A stretch of 64,000 nt of DNA, taken from the NCBI RefSeq assembly GCF_900090325.1, contig NZ_FMHW01000002.1, forward strand, positions 5,023,001-5,087,000. The letters are read 5' to 3'. Below, one piece after another: positions 31,816 to 37,753 of this stretch. Source of the DNA: Micromonospora pallida (lineage in GTDB: Bacteria; Actinomycetota; Actinomycetes; Mycobacteriales; Micromonosporaceae). Both the position numbers and the translations under genes were made by a program. The notes below the pieces were generated by a model that was not told the origin of the DNA, made no database searches, and saw only the letters and a list, made by a program, of their open reading frames with translations. Position 1 is the stretch's first letter, and each line of letters opens with the position of its first letter.

Positions 31816-33015
31816 TCACCCCAGCGGCGGGCGGGCGGCGGCGGTGAGCAGGTCGAGGGCGGCGGAGGTGGGCAGCGGGTCGAGAAGTCGGCCGTCGCGC
31901 TGGCGGAGGCTGACCCGTCCCTCGGCGGCCTCCCGGGGGCCGACCACGGCGACGTACGGAATCCGGCGACGGGCGGCGTCCCGGATCCGCGCGCCGAGGG
32001 AGCCGGCCCCGTCCACCTCGACCCGCAACCCGGCGTGGACGCAGTCCCGGGCGAACTCCGCCGCCGGCCCGCCCTGCCGGTCGTCCAACGGGAGAACCAC
32101 CACCTGCACCGGGGCGTACCAGACCGGGAACGCGCCCGCGTGCTCCTCGATCAGGTACGCGAAGAGGCGTTCCATGCTGCCGACCAGGCTCCGGTGCACC
32201 ATCACCGGTCGACGTCGCGCCCCGCCCGCGTCGACGTACGACAGGTCGAACCGCTCCGGTTTGTCGAAGTCGAGCTGGATGGTGGAGAGGGTGAACTCCC
32301 GTCCCGCCGCGTCCCGTACCTGGATGTCGATCTTTGGGCCGTAGAAAGCGGCCTCGCCGGGAGCCTCGGTGTGGTCGATCCCGGCCAGCGCGGCCCGCAG
32401 CAGGTCCTCGGCCCGGTGCCACTGCTCCTCGTCGCCGACGTACTTCTCTCCCGGCCCGCGCAGCGACAGCCGATACCCGGCGATCCGCACGCCGAGCGCA
32501 GCGTGCGCCGCCCCGATCAGTCCGAGGATCTCGGCGACCTCCGCGCCGACCTGCTCCAGAGCGCAGAAGTTGTGCGCGTCGTTGAGCGAAATGGCGCGTA
32601 CCCGGGACAGTCCGCCGAGCACCCCCGACCGTTCCGCCCGGTACATGCCGCCCAGTTCGGCGACGCGCAGCGGCAACTCCCGGTAGGAACGGCCCCGGGC
32701 CCGGTAGACCAGGGCATGGTGCGGGCAGAGCGCCGGACGGAGGACGAACTCGTCGTCGGCACTCAGCCGCATCGGCGGAAACATGTCACCGGCGAAGTAG
32801 CCAAGGTGCCCGGAGAGGTCGAACAGCTCCCGCCGGCCCAACGGCGGGGTGTGGACGTGCTGGTAGCCGGCCCGGCGCTCCAACTCCCGGAGGTACTCCT
32901 CGACCGCGTGCCGGGCGGCGGCGCCGGCCGGCAGCCAGAACGGCAGGCCGGCACCGCTGAGCGGGTCGGAGGCGAAGAGGTCCAGCTCGCGGCCGAGCCT
33001 ACGGTGGTCGATCAT
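31816..33015 (-). CDS. threonyl-tRNA synthetase paralogue lacking TGS and editing domains
   Basis: 399 aa, against about 640-690 for full ThrRS. It comprises only the class II catalytic core and the C-terminal anticodon-binding domain. The three zinc ligands seen in ThrRS are kept: Cys in LRPALCPHHALVY, His in LNDAHNFC, and His in PVMVHRSLVGSMERL (motif 3). Motif 2 is MYRAERSGVLGGLSRVR. The anticodon domain runs from WYAPVQVVVLPL. It should charge tRNA-Thr but cannot edit mischarged Ser. ATG 33015 follows GGGAG; a start at 33063 would begin at the edge of the terminator. It is probably an inducible or resistance second copy; a Thr-rich leader lies upstream. Confidence 0.9.
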   Translation of the reverse strand: MIDHRRLGRELDLFASDPLSGAGLPFWLPAGAAARHAVEEYLRELERRAGYQHVHTPPLGRRELFDLSGHLGYFAGDMFPPMRLSADDEFVLRPALCPHHALVYRARGRSYRELPLRVAELGGMYRAERSGVLGGLSRVRAISLNDAHNFCALEQVGAEVAEILGLIGAAHAALGVRIAGYRLSLRGPGEKYVGDEEQWHRAEDLLRAALAGIDHTEAPGEAAFYGPKIDIQVRDAAGREFTLSTIQLDFDKPERFDLSYVDAGGARRRPVMVHRSLVGSMERLFAYLIEEHAGAFPVWYAPVQVVVLPLDDRQGGPAAEFARDCVHAGLRVEVDGAGSLGARIRDAARRRIPYVAVVGPREAAEGRVSLRQRDGRLLDPLPTSAALDLLTAAARPPLG

Positions 33016-33063
33016 CAGGTCTCCCGGTTTCGGGTACGGCCCGGTAGCGACCAGCCAGAGCAC

Positions 33064-33100
33064 GACGAAGGCCCCGGGGCGGATCGCCCGGGGCCTCGTC
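33064..33100 (-). terminator. attenuator terminator hairpin of the ThrRS-like gene
   Basis: Read on the minus strand, GACGAGGCCCCGGGCG pairs with CGCCCCGGGGCCTTCGTC, about 16 pairs with two single-base bulges and a 3-4 base loop. It lies between the leader-peptide stop (33112) and the synthetase start (33015). No long U tract, as in other hairpins of this genome. Confidence 0.65.
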
Positions 33101-33111
33101 GACGGATCAGG

Positions 33112-33165
33112 TCAGCGCGGCACGCCGGGGTCACCCGGCGTCGTCGTCACCACCGCACTGCGCAT
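33112..33165 (-). CDS. threonine-rich leader peptide of the ThrRS-like gene
   Basis: ATG 33165 to TGA 33112 encodes MRSAVVTTTPGDPGVPR (17 aa) with three consecutive Thr codons, all ACG (33147-33139). The hairpin ACGCCGGG-N4-CCCGGCGT (33141-33122) begins exactly at the third Thr codon, and a terminator hairpin follows. TACCGT (33178-33173) stands 7 bases before the ATG, the same leaderless promoter pattern seen at other genes here. This is the classic layout of ribosome-mediated attenuation: stalling at Thr codons when charged tRNA-Thr is scarce would melt the first hairpin and spare the synthetase gene from termination. Translation has not been shown. Confidence 0.7.
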   Translation of the reverse strand: MRSAVVTTTPGDPGVPR

Positions 33166-33178
33166 ACGGCCGACGGTA
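33122..33178 (-). promoter_or_regulatory. promoter -10 box and pause hairpin of the Thr attenuator
   Basis: TACCGT at 33178-33173 is the candidate -10 box. The 8-bp stem with 4-base loop at 33141-33122 is the candidate 1:2 hairpin. Its 3' arm CCCCGG can alternatively pair with the CCGGG of the terminator's 5' arm (region 33085-33095), giving an antiterminator. Confidence 0.55.
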
Positions 33179-33238
33179 CGCCGACCGCGGGACGGAACGC
33201 ACCCGATTTCGTGGGAGCCGGAGCAGCCCGGGACAAGT

Positions 33239-33289
33239 GACGCACTCGTAATGCGCAGGTCGACGGTTCGATTCCGTCAGGCGGCTCCA
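33239..33289 (+). tRNA. 3' fragment of a tRNA-Thr(CGU) gene (not a complete tRNA)
   Basis: 51 bases match the 3' two-thirds of a tRNA: anticodon arm CGCACTCGTAATGCG (anticodon CGT, decoding ACG), variable region, T arm GACGGTTCGATTCCGTC, and acceptor AGGCGGC-T-CCA with encoded CCA. The expected 5' acceptor GCCGCCT and D arm are missing. Such 3' halves are typically left as attachment sites by integrative elements that target tRNA genes. Curiously GGAGCCG (33214-33220) could pair with CGGCTCC (33282-33288) at about tRNA length, probably by chance. Confidence 0.7.
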
Positions 33290-33343
33290 GGGTGAGGCTC
33301 TGACCAGTAGAAGGCCAGGGTAGGCCCATGATCACCGCGCCGG

Positions 33344-34318
33344 TCAGGCCGGCGTGATGGGCCCGTCCGGTGCCGGAGTGCGGTGGTCGAGCCAGTCGCG
33401 GTAGACCGGGTATCTTCTCGCCTCCACCCGGTGCGCTTCGGTGAGCGCGTCCCGTAGCCGATCCGCGTGCGGCACGAGCGGCCCACGGCAGGGCCAGATG
33501 AGCCGGTGGCGTACCCACATCGGGTTACCGGCCAGGGGCCGGATCACGACACCCGCGCGGGCCGGCGTCAACGCGTGGGTGAGTGCCACCCCGTGCCCCT
33601 GGCTGATGAGCGGGAAGACGACGCTGGCGTTCATTCGCTGCACTTGGCGTGGGGTGAAGCCGGCACGCCGGGAGGCAGCTCGGAACAGGGCGCGCATCCG
33701 TACGTCCTTGCCCTCACCGACGAGCCACTGCTCGGTGGCGAGGTCGGGGAGCGCCACCTCCGCCCGGCCGGCCAGCGGGTGCCCCGCGGAGAGCGCGACG
33801 AAGATGGGATCCACCGCGAGTACGGCGTCGCCGAGTTCGGGCGGCAACGCCAGCTCGTACCCGGGATAGTCCATGCCCAGCCCGAACTCCAGGCGTCCGC
33901 CGACCAGCAGGTCGAGGAGTTCCTCCTCGGTGTCGGCCACCTGCAGGGAGACGTCGGCGTGCGGGAGCAGGGTGCGGACGGCGGTCATCAGCGGCCCGGT
34001 CAGCGGACCAGGTATCGAACCCAGCCGCACTGTGTTCAGGTCGGTGTCGTCGGGTCCACGTTGACGTACGTCACGGAGCAGGTCGTCGTAGAGAGCCAGG
34101 AGGCCGGTGGAGTGGTTCAGGACGATGGTGCCGAGTGTGGTGGGCCGGACACCACTGCCGCCGCGTTCGAACAGCGGGCCGCCGAGGGCGCGTTCGATCC
34201 GCTGCAACTGGGCGGTCAGCGCCGGTTGGGTGTACCCGAGAGCCGCGGCGGCCCGGCTGATGCTGCCGGCCGTCGCGATCGCGGTCACCACCCTTAGATG
34301 GCGGATCTCCAGGTCCAT
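33344..34318 (-). CDS. LysR-family transcriptional regulator
   Basis: 324 aa. N-terminal domain MDLEIRHLRVVTAIATAGSI, SRAAAALGYTQPALTAQLQR, IERALGGPLFERGGSGVRPT. Effector domain from about residue 90. The C-terminus (HRVEARRYPVYRDWLDHRTP) extends slightly beyond the usual length. It lies divergent from the secreted protease, 93 bp between starts, and may regulate it; no clear operator was picked out. Confidence 0.87.
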   Translation of the reverse strand: MDLEIRHLRVVTAIATAGSISRAAAALGYTQPALTAQLQRIERALGGPLFERGGSGVRPTTLGTIVLNHSTGLLALYDDLLRDVRQRGPDDTDLNTVRLGSIPGPLTGPLMTAVRTLLPHADVSLQVADTEEELLDLLVGGRLEFGLGMDYPGYELALPPELGDAVLAVDPIFVALSAGHPLAGRAEVALPDLATEQWLVGEGKDVRMRALFRAASRRAGFTPRQVQRMNASVVFPLISQGHGVALTHALTPARAGVVIRPLAGNPMWVRHRLIWPCRGPLVPHADRLRDALTEAHRVEARRYPVYRDWLDHRTPAPDGPITPA

Positions 34319-34411
34319 AACCCGATGCTATGGCCGGCTGGGATTTCCCGGTAGATCGTGCCGGTCGGGACAGTAACCCCGGCCTGATCAGGACATTTGC
34401 AGGAGGCATGG

Positions 34412-37400
34412 GTGCGGCGGAGACGATTTTACAGACTGGCAACAATCATGTCGGCGGCGCTGGTCGTGGGTACCGCCTCGGTGCTGCCGGCGGCCGCCGC
34501 GCCGGATACGCCGGGCGCGTCCGGCGCCTCCGGCTGGCAGACGGGCGGCGCGGCCCGTCCCGACGACGGGCACTGGGTCACCCTGGTCACCGGCGACCGC
34601 GTTTACCTGGCCGACAAGCGGGTCTCGGTGATCCCCGGCGTCGGCCGGGAGCGGATCGGCTTCAGCCAGTTCACCCAGGAGGACCACCAGTACGTGGTGC
34701 CGAACGACGCGCTGCGGCTGGTCTCCGCCGGACAGGTGGACCGCCGGCTGTTCGACGTCACCGGGCTGGTCGAGGCAGGCTACGACGACGCGCACCTGAG
34801 CGAGCTGCCGACCATCGTCGGGCACCCGGGGACCGCGGGCCGGGCGCCGCTGCGGGCCAACGGAGGATCGCGGGTGACCCGGGCGCTGCCCAGCGTGGGC
34901 GGCTCGGCGGTGCGGGTGGACAAGAGGCGGGCTGCGACCTTCTGGGCCGACATCACCGCCAAGGGCAGCAAGTTCGGCAAGCTCTGGCTGGACGGCCGGC
35001 GCACGGTCAGCCTCGACCAGAGCGTGCCGCAGATCGGTGCGCCGCAGGCGTGGTCGGCCGGGTACGACGGAGCCGGGGTCACCGTCGCCGTCCTGGACAC
35101 CGGGGTCGACGACACCCACCCCGACCTGGTCGGGCGGATCGCGGAGAAGCAGGACTTCACCGGCGCCGGGGACGCCAGCGACACGGTCGGACACGGCACC
35201 CACGTGGCGGCCACCATCGCGGGTACCGGGGCGGGCTCCGACGGCCGGTACCGCGGTGTCGCGCCCGGCGCCTCGCTGCTGATCGGCAAGGTCTGCGAGA
35301 CCCGCAACTGCGCGGAGTCGGCGATCCTCGCCGGCATGGAGTGGGCGGCGCCGCGCGCGAAGGTCATCAACATGAGCCTCGGCGGACCGGATGTGGGCGA
35401 CGATCCGATGAAGGCGGCGGTGAACACGCTGACCGCGCAGACCGGGGCGCTGTTCGTCATCGCGGCCGGCAACAACGGCCAGGACGGCGGCGTCTCCTCG
35501 CCGGCCACCGCCGACGCCGCGCTCGCGGTGGGCGCGGTGGACAAGCAGGACAACCTGGCCGACTTCTCCAACCGTGGGCCGCGCTCGGACGGCGCCATCA
35601 AGCCGGAGATCACCGCACCCGGCGTCGGCATCGTCGCGGCACTCTCCAAGGACAGCCAGTACCCGGTCTACGCTCCCGGGTACACCCAGCTGAACGGCAC
35701 CTCGATGGCAACGCCGCACGTGGCCGGAGCCGCCGCGCTGCTGGCCGACCAGCACCCGGGCTGGGCCGCTGGCGAGCTCAAGGCGCAGCTGATGGCCTCG
35801 GCCAAGCCGAACCCAGCGCTGAACGCGTTTCAGCAGGGTGCCGGACGGGTGGACGTGGGCCGCGCCGTCCAGCAGGCGGTGCTGCCCAGCCCGACCAGCC
35901 TTGGTCTGGGTGTCCAGTCCTACCCGGCCGACGACGACGTGCCGGTGACCCGGACCGTGACCTACCGCAACGACAGCCCGGTCGCGGTGACCCTGAACCT
36001 GACCGTGTCGGCGACCGGCCCCGAGGGCTCGGCGGCACCGGCCGGCATGTTCACGGTCAGCCCGGGCCAGTTGACCATCCCGGCCGGCGGCACCGCCGGA
36101 GCCACGGTCACCGCCGACACCCGGGTGAACAGCGCCACCGGCCTGTTCAGCGGGGCCGTGGTGGCCAGCTCCGTGGACGGCACAGTCTCCGTCCGGGTGC
36201 CGGTAGCCGTCACCAAGGAACACGAGTCGCGCAAGCTGTCGGTAAAGCTCATCGACCGCAACGGAGCGCCCGCCAGTAACTACTCGCTCAGTATCGTGGG
36301 CGTCGACTTCTTCACCTTCAAGGTGCCGTACGACGCTTCAGGATCCCTCACGACCTCGTTGCGGCCCGGCCGGTTCACCGTCCAGGCGACCGTCCTCACG
36401 GACGAGGCTGACGGCACCAGCTCGACCCTGCTGACGTACCCGGTCTTCACGGTCACCTCCGGCAGCGACGCCGAACTGGTGCTGGACGCCCGCAAGGGAA
36501 CCTCGGCCTCGGTCACCGTGCCAGACGCCGGGGCCGCCAGCCACAGCGCCCACCTCGGCTTCTACCGGACGGTTCCGTTCGGGTACGGGCTGGACTTCCG
36601 AATCAGCGGGAACACCTTCGACAAGCTGTACATGGCGAACGTGGGCAGCCCGGTACCGGCGGACGCGGGCACGCTCACCAGCGAGGTACGTACGGTCTGG
36701 GCACAGCAGAACGCCGACGGTACCTTCGACAACTCGCCCTACGAGTACGACCTCGTCTGGTTCCGCCAGGGTGACCTGTTCACCAACTTCCGGCACACCG
36801 TCAAGAAGAACGAGTTGGCCACTGTGGTCAACCGATTCCACTCGGTCACGCCGGATAGGCAGAACGGGTACATGCACAACTGGGGCATCCCGGCGTCGGG
36901 TGGCAGCGCGATCTCCGCACCCATCCCGTTCACCATCCCCAGCGAGCGCACCATCTACCACTCCGCCCGCGACACGGTCTGGCGGACCATGTGGCAGCAG
37001 GTTGGGCCGGGGTACGGGACGCAGTTGCTCAGGGACGACGTGACGTACCAGGCGGGCCAGCGGTCCGTGGTGAACTGGCAGAAGGGGCCGGCCGCGCCGA
37101 TCTTCAACGGGTACCGGTGGGGGCCGGTGACCTTCGTCCGGCAGGGCAACGTCATGAGTTTCCACGTGCCACCGTTCGGGGACCAGGCCGGGCACACCGG
37201 GTTTTCGTCCCTGGACACCGGGCAGACGAAGTTCTACCAGGACGACAAGCTGCTCGCGGACGTCCCCACCTATTTCTACGACGCGGCGGGCCCGGTAACC
37301 GCGGCGGAGAGCACGTACCGGCTGGAGTACGAGACGACCCGCGGCGCGGACGGCGGGTTCGACAACAGCACGGCGATCAGCGGCAGATGGACGTTCCGCT

Positions 37401-37753
37401 CCGCCGAGACACCAGGTGACAGGCCGACCGCCCTGCCGCTCGCCTCGGTCCGGTTCCAACCGGAGTTGGACCTCCACAACAGTGCGCGCGGTGGTGGGGT
37501 GCTCCCGGTCCCGCTCAGCATCGAGCGCCAGCCGGGCGCGGCCGCCTCCAACCTGACGTCGGTCAACGTCGAGGTGTCGTACGACGAGGGAGCGACCTGG
37601 CACCGGGTGACGCTGCGGAAGACCGGAGAGGGCGCTTTCCTGGCCCTGCTCGACCAGCCGAAGCGCGGTCACGTGTCGCTGCGCGCCAGCGCGGCCTACG
37701 CCGACGGGGCCACCGTCGACTACACCGTCATCAAGGCGTACCGGCTGCGTTGA
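34412..37753 (+). CDS. large secreted subtilisin-like (S8) serine protease
   Basis: 1113 aa. Signal peptide about 1-29 (RRRRFYRLATIMSAALVVG, cleavage near PAAAA). A propeptide-like region precedes the S8 domain: Asp in VAVLDTGVDDTHPDL (about 229), His in VGHGTHVAATIAG (about 261), oxyanion Asn in AAGNNGQDGG, Ser in NGTSMATPHVAG (about 431). The C-terminal 600 residues are beta-rich, probably Ig/jelly-roll-like domains for substrate or surface binding. GTG 34412 follows AGGAGG. Extracellular protein degradation is likely. Confidence 0.92.
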   Translation: MRRRRFYRLATIMSAALVVGTASVLPAAAAPDTPGASGASGWQTGGAARPDDGHWVTLVTGDRVYLADKRVSVIPGVGRERIGFSQFTQEDHQYVVPNDALRLVSAGQVDRRLFDVTGLVEAGYDDAHLSELPTIVGHPGTAGRAPLRANGGSRVTRALPSVGGSAVRVDKRRAATFWADITAKGSKFGKLWLDGRRTVSLDQSVPQIGAPQAWSAGYDGAGVTVAVLDTGVDDTHPDLVGRIAEKQDFTGAGDASDTVGHGTHVAATIAGTGAGSDGRYRGVAPGASLLIGKVCETRNCAESAILAGMEWAAPRAKVINMSLGGPDVGDDPMKAAVNTLTAQTGALFVIAAGNNGQDGGVSSPATADAALAVGAVDKQDNLADFSNRGPRSDGAIKPEITAPGVGIVAALSKDSQYPVYAPGYTQLNGTSMATPHVAGAAALLADQHPGWAAGELKAQLMASAKPNPALNAFQQGAGRVDVGRAVQQAVLPSPTSLGLGVQSYPADDDVPVTRTVTYRNDSPVAVTLNLTVSATGPEGSAAPAGMFTVSPGQLTIPAGGTAGATVTADTRVNSATGLFSGAVVASSVDGTVSVRVPVAVTKEHESRKLSVKLIDRNGAPASNYSLSIVGVDFFTFKVPYDASGSLTTSLRPGRFTVQATVLTDEADGTSSTLLTYPVFTVTSGSDAELVLDARKGTSASVTVPDAGAASHSAHLGFYRTVPFGYGLDFRISGNTFDKLYMANVGSPVPADAGTLTSEVRTVWAQQNADGTFDNSPYEYDLVWFRQGDLFTNFRHTVKKNELATVVNRFHSVTPDRQNGYMHNWGIPASGGSAISAPIPFTIPSERTIYHSARDTVWRTMWQQVGPGYGTQLLRDDVTYQAGQRSVVNWQKGPAAPIFNGYRWGPVTFVRQGNVMSFHVPPFGDQAGHTGFSSLDTGQTKFYQDDKLLADVPTYFYDAAGPVTAAESTYRLEYETTRGADGGFDNSTAISGRWTFRSAETPGDRPTALPLASVRFQPELDLHNSARGGGVLPVPLSIERQPGAAASNLTSVNVEVSYDEGATWHRVTLRKTGEGAFLALLDQPKRGHVSLRASAAYADGATVDYTVIKAYRLR

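Follow-up and report, generated by a model that had tools for sequence, protein, structure and literature searches.

The question raised by this locus is whether the DNA in front of a short threonyl-tRNA synthetase (ThrRS) gene of Micromonospora pallida encodes a leader through which the translating ribosome controls that gene. The window – the whole 64,000-nucleotide stretch of DNA that was analysed – carries the gene on its minus strand, and the features at issue, in the order in which they would be transcribed, are as follows.

33173..33178, minus strand: -10 box TACCGT of a predicted leaderless promoter (read from the sequence; TAnnnT box in 145 of 146 loci)
33112..33165, minus strand: leader open reading frame (ORF), codons MRSAVVTTTPGDPGVPR plus the stop TGA (33114-33112); 17 codons, ORF in 145 of 146 loci
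33139..33147, minus strand: ACG ACG ACG, three Thr codons in a row (three in 139 of 145 leaders)
33122..33141, minus strand: hairpin 1, 8 bp, loop TGAC, starting inside the third Thr codon (from the fold and an 80-sequence alignment)
33063..33101, minus strand: strong terminator-like hairpin without a U-tract (from the fold; main helix with double changes in 80 sequences)
33046..33052, minus strand: 3' strand of helix H3, whose partner, 33088-33082, is terminator arm and loop
33021..33025, minus strand: Shine-Dalgarno-like GGGAG of the ThrRS paralogue (read from the sequence)
31816..33015, minus strand: ThrRS paralogue without TGS and editing domains, 399 amino acids, ATG at 33015 (PF00587, PF03129, TIGR00418)

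Much of this had been proposed in a sequence-only reading of the window, and most of the anatomy stands as described: a TACCGT box (33178-33173) with 7 bases between it and the leader ATG (33165), three consecutive ACG codons at 33147-33139, an 8-bp hairpin beginning at the third ACG and, downstream, a truncated ThrRS paralogue. The arms of the hairpin, ACGCCGGG (33141-33134) and CCCGGCGT (33129-33122), form 8 pairs in the fold; folding of the leader in the window sequence beats all of 200 shuffles (z -3.39). The spacing of the box suggests a transcription start on, or close to, the A of the leader's ATG, in which case the start would be leaderless. The claimed terminator-like hairpin is present and strong, at 33101-33063 rather than the proposed 33100-33064, but it has no U-tract, and a scan for consensus promoters and terminators at the leader found neither.

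The Thr leader before the short ThrRS gene is deeply conserved. In 145 of 146 orthologous upstream regions a leader ORF shows [TN]T[TP]P close to its start and has a TAnnnT box 6-8 nt ahead of that start, a count flattered by a leader finder that favours candidates with such a box. Orthologues lacking Thr codons or hairpins at the same place had been named beforehand as evidence against the proposal; they were looked for and did not turn up. The sole miss (locus L148, genome G641) is a contig that begins 54 bases before the gene. The 146 regions include genomes present in two collections, and comprise 131 distinct leader-to-gene sequences, 80 of them below 85% identity; five loci that were other own-genome synthetases or non-actinobacterial (L002, L003, L004, L051 and L054) had been left out before this count. 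A test free of ORF choice concerns the reading frame: in 130 of 137 box/start pairs (131 distinct sequences) the start codon behind the TAnnnT box shares its frame with the Thr codons, against an expectation of one third, the sequences being related and hence not 137 independent trials. Leaders carry three Thr codons in 139 of 145 cases and two in the other six (L029, L034, L038, L042 and L050 of Salinispora, plus L105). Among loci L124-L151, which come from four other families, most leaders resemble M[KQ]RAxxTTTP[ED]xVPAR.

Pairing was then compared across an alignment of 80 sequences, whose columns derive from folds of the same sequences, which favours them. Taken together, hairpin 1 and the terminator are paired in 92.0% of cells, compared with 87.4% in shuffled and at most 62.6% in slid alignments, and 8 pairs show double changes compared with 4.0 in shuffles (0 of 500 shuffles reach 8). 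The main helix of the terminator has double changes in 7 of its 10 pairs; hairpin 1, paired in 91.5% of cells, has none. The terminator helix thus covaries, above shuffles and slides. An alignment of orthologous upstream regions, the check suggested by the sequence-only reading, therefore returns conserved Thr codons and a covarying terminator helix, but no double changes in hairpin 1. As for the antiterminator, the claimed complementarity between the 3' arm of hairpin 1 and the 5' arm of the terminator is present and pairs in 93.6% of cells, the same as in shuffles and with no double changes; because both arms hardly vary, covariation is uninformative here.

The effect of a ribosome on these structures was followed in silico in 131 sequences, with an RNA that ends before the 3' arm of the terminator and with no shuffled control. 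With a ribosome placed on the first Thr codon, an average of 4.7 pairs link the 3' arm of hairpin 1 to the terminator's 5' arm, versus 0.2 in the free leader; a stall at the third Thr codon gives a weaker antiterminator (2.0 pairs). In every ribosome state the terminator prevails at equilibrium (mean 0.90-0.93), and the switch must therefore be kinetic. The hairpin is strong and placed shortly past the leader stop in most of the 131 sequences, and is followed by no U-tract: in 99 of the 131, the next 10 nt contain 2 or 3 T.

Very probably, then, the leader is a peptide-type (ribosome-mediated) attenuator that senses tRNA-Thr charging and governs a spare ThrRS having neither a TGS nor an editing domain. 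When Thr-tRNA is ample the ribosome would pass the Thr codons to the stop, the strong hairpin would form, and transcription would end or pause. When Thr-tRNA is scarce the ribosome would stall at the Thr codons, hiding the 5' arm of hairpin 1 and leaving its 3' arm free to pair with the terminator's emerging 5' arm; with this antiterminator formed RNA polymerase would continue into the ThrRS gene. The basis in hand is conservation, reading frame, in-silico geometry and the covariation of the terminator helix, and to that extent the earlier claim of Thr attenuation is sustained; the start site, the response to charging and – given a hairpin without a U-tract – termination itself are predicted components of the model. 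Against it stand the missing U-tract, the lack of a consensus terminator, the equilibrium preference for the terminator, the weaker antiterminator on a stall at the third codon, the absence of double changes from hairpin 1 and the antiterminator, and the six leaders with two Thr codons.

A different reading, which partly overlaps the attenuator, is that the leader acts mainly on translation or via Rho, replacing or adding to intrinsic termination: a stalled or terminating ribosome would alter access to the gene start or to Rho sites. The helix H3 would belong to that layer. H3 pairs the end of the terminator 5' arm and the loop with a stretch that ends about 29 bases (median) before the gene start; in the window (33088-33082 with 33052-33046) its z is only -0.7. 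Across 127 sequences its mean duplex energy is -13.6 compared with -10.7 when shuffled (mean z -1.4; z < -1 in 65%). In the 80-sequence alignment 85.1% of H3 cells are paired, compared with 76.5% in shuffled and 42-50% in slid alignments, and double changes occur in 8 of 9 pairs compared with 5.1 in shuffles (2 of 500 shuffles reach 8), the columns again coming from folds of the same 80 sequences, which favours them. H3 and the complete terminator are mutually exclusive: the two do not fully coexist. Imposing H3 on the fold raises the opening of the Shine-Dalgarno by more than 0.2 in 49 of 106 sequences; in 4 it has the opposite, closing effect. The duplex and Shine-Dalgarno tests cover 127 and 106 of the 131 sequences; in the others there was not enough room, H3 was weak, or the aligned gene start held no ATG, GTG or TTG.

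Control of translation or of Rho access is thus favoured by a hairpin without a U-tract and by a covarying helix that excludes the full terminator, reaches the stretch before the Shine-Dalgarno and, when forced, tends to open it. The masking effect is, on the other hand, unspecific – the Shine-Dalgarno is unpaired at 0.42 with the H3 strand masked and at 0.39 with the adjacent stretch masked – and in most sequences there is a strong hairpin shortly past the leader stop. We consider this reading possible but rather unlikely. Nor do we claim that H3 frees the Shine-Dalgarno, since masking the neighbouring stretch has a nearly equal effect.

It is very unlikely that the leader product is a small or arrest peptide whose own sequence is important. 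Own-family leaders do carry TTTPGxPGxP and most other-family leaders have TTTPExVPAR-like ends, but the conserved residues past TTT are encoded by hairpin 1, the residues directly before TTT vary, and the PG pattern does not hold in L107, L111 and L112. In the whole 64-kb window no Rfam family attains its gathering threshold, and at E<=1 positions 32900-33320 match neither a T-box nor a thr leader. In E. coli, thrS is autoregulated through binding of ThrRS to its own leader. Such binding here, or a T-box, is scarcely credible, for although the part of PMC2965389 that bears on it mentions control by E. coli ThrRS of its own expression, the leader region has no T-box or thr leader match at E<=1 and conserves a translated Thr ORF.

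The short ThrRS gene is present in at least 124 of 151 genus genomes (E<=1e-120), at least 223 of 300 family genomes (1e-112) and at least 61 of 394 class genomes (1e-108; own and five further families), the strict cut-offs making all three counts lower bounds. When 20 of the 27 genus genomes without a match were rechecked, 18 gave only canonical-level ThrRS matches, one (G052) has the short gene in two overlapping pieces, and one (G059) has three weaker ThrRS-like genes. The latter lie within 46 kb of one contig (C64, 2907-49240; L294, L296) and are 40, 39 and 30% identical to the query; in this genome, of the same genus and lacking the short paralogue, they are perhaps a cluster with self-protection.

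As a control, the upstream regions of canonical thrS genes from class genomes were searched: in 0 of 70 is a Thr leader accompanied by a -10 box, and 3 of 70 have a TTT-containing ORF but no box (the search covered 70 of 188 genomes, and one region, L244, is of just 151 bases). An RNA model made from 45 leaders – about 11 of them from the class genomes searched, which match by construction – finds this locus in its own genome at 4.7e-23, with the next-best place at 3.7e-4. In the 394 class genomes, counting matches at 1.2e-6 or better and not those between 2.4e-6 and 0.01, 63 genomes have a match, and in 59 of the 61 with the short gene it lies directly upstream of that gene. The two gene-bearing genomes without a strong match are G641, the one with the contig-cut locus L148, and G502. 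G439, which has a strong match and is outside the 61, does carry the short gene (L193). In G583 (L196) the leader lies at a contig end, and no short ThrRS was found in the genome. In G590 and G726 (L194, L195) leader, hairpin and terminator precede a full-length ThrRS, the sole ThrRS found in each genome: the switch can therefore precede either kind of ThrRS.

The surroundings of the locus were also compared. On the plus strand at 33245-33289 lies a 45-base 3' part of a tRNA-Thr(cgt), from the anticodon loop to CCA; an intact tRNA-Thr(cgt) 467 kb away contains almost the same sequence (3 mismatches). Among 83 loci compared the piece occurs in this one alone; on these grounds it was rejected as part of the leader, and it looks like a separate attachment-site scar or tRNA fragment. 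The stretch 33344-37753 beyond holds a LysR gene and a peptidase gene (subtilisin-like by eye), which occur in 0 of 48 relatives' loci; a local rearrangement with one end close to the tRNA fragment may lie behind this. On the other side two convergent ABC transporter genes recur in 37 of the 48. An operon role for these neighbours was discarded: no gene sharing the leader was seen, the LysR and peptidase genes being absent from all 48 loci and the ABC genes convergent.

The sequence-only reading knew of no described leader of this type; here it was mistaken. PMC8079986 gives, for Streptomyces lividans TK24, thrL (MKRVRPFLETTPGFVPAR) before thrS, leaderless, with one hairpin and no U-tract. As presented there, it shares with our locus a short leaderless Thr leader before a Thr-tRNA ligase gene and a hairpin without a U-tract; its peptide resembles MKRAQPFLTTTPDSVPAR of L138, a leader before a short ThrRS gene. 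The features of the thrL type found here are a Thr leader with TTP...P, a ThrRS gene and a hairpin without a U-tract, the leaderless start being predicted. The S. lividans case differs in concerning one species and two Thr codons, and the section on thrL contains neither alternative structures, covariation nor the type of ligase; we infer that the ligase behind thrL, SLIV_19410, is a short ThrRS. The metL leader of S. lividans also contains TTTPG (Table 4 of PMC8079986) and might sense Thr too. A Thr leader before thrS is, then, already known from one Streptomyces, and its spread over several families is an extension; among the matches listed in the open-licence literature no wider description of such a Thr leader was found.

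Streptomyces coelicolor TrpRS1 is under ribosome-mediated attenuation and, like the gene studied here, is the product of an additional synthetase gene preceded by a leader for the cognate amino acid. A table in PMC9437257 lists this auxiliary TrpRS1 as indolmycin-resistant: resistance is established there, whereas here it is only residues that suggest it. PMC1262725, in its passages on these genes, predicts attenuators at trpS2 and leuS of Streptomyces, likewise peptide-type and on actinobacterial synthetase genes but for Trp and Leu; where it treats threonine operons it reports no conserved structures. ThrRS T2 of Anabaena, as described in the relevant part of PMC4787780, is similar in being an inducible second ThrRS with impaired editing, and different in being controlled by Zur and zinc, with no leader peptide.

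What kind of enzyme the leader would control can be read in part from its residues. The paralogue has the class II core (PF00587) and the anticodon-binding domain (PF03129); its match to TIGR00418 (thrS) covers positions 172-547 of 565 and begins only at 172, so the protein lacks the TGS and editing domains. Among named proteins and loci the closest belong to Micromonospora, and the own genome also has a canonical ThrRS, 44% identical to the paralogue over the shared part. Residues, in human numbering and mapped by motif, were surveyed in 147 paralogue and 54 canonical loci, of which 145 and 41 passed a filter for length and absence of stops, leaving 132 and 40 distinct sequences. The zinc ligands, the arginines of motifs 2 and 3, and T560, Q562 and D564 are invariant in the 132 paralogues.

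Twelve residues that contact borrelidin are altered in resistant archaeal ThrRS, according to the part of PMC4389257 concerned with them. In the paralogues M411 is A, S or G (132 of 132; M in 40 of 40 canonical proteins), Q460 is L (132 of 132; Q in 40 of 40), L567 is K, Q or R (131 of 132; L in 35 of 40) and A592 is S or G (132 of 132; A in 40 of 40). At Y392, 99 of 132 paralogues have F; H391 and Q566 are changed in paralogues and canonical proteins alike, and neither group is changed at S386, G387, H388, F539 or Y540. Changes at E. coli L489 (= L567) increase Ki, as noted in the same part of PMC4389257; that L567R inactivates human ThrRS counts against a reading in terms of resistance. The best solved-structure match of the paralogue is 1nyq/1nyr, 1NYR being S. 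aureus ThrRS (a figure legend in PMC4389257). In the alignment S. aureus ThrRS has L at Q460 and G at A592, but M at 411 and L at 567: two of the paralogues' four changes are thus partly shared by it, and descent may account for some of the difference from canonical ThrRS at the contact sites. Since the catalytic and zinc residues are kept while four borrelidin-contact sites differ, the paralogue may be a spare enzyme that is inducible and tolerates inhibitors.

An editing-less ThrRS with a remodelled inhibitor pocket, guarded by a Thr leader across several families of Actinomycetes, could tentatively be seen as an old, inducible self-rescue from natural ThrRS inhibitors such as borrelidin – a possibility, though not one we would bet on. 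The signal would be the poisoned canonical ThrRS itself: Thr-tRNA would fall, ribosomes would stall, and the tolerant spare would be made, with the conserved extra helix, which links the terminator loop to the pre-gene stretch, as a second layer of control. The work on the leader extends a table entry from a single species to an element that several families of the class possess and that has a clear genetic target, and the alignment and RNA model serve its annotation. If the self-rescue hypothesis is true, soil actinobacteria hold in reserve an inhibitor-tolerant ThrRS whose induction comes from the inhibitor's own damage.
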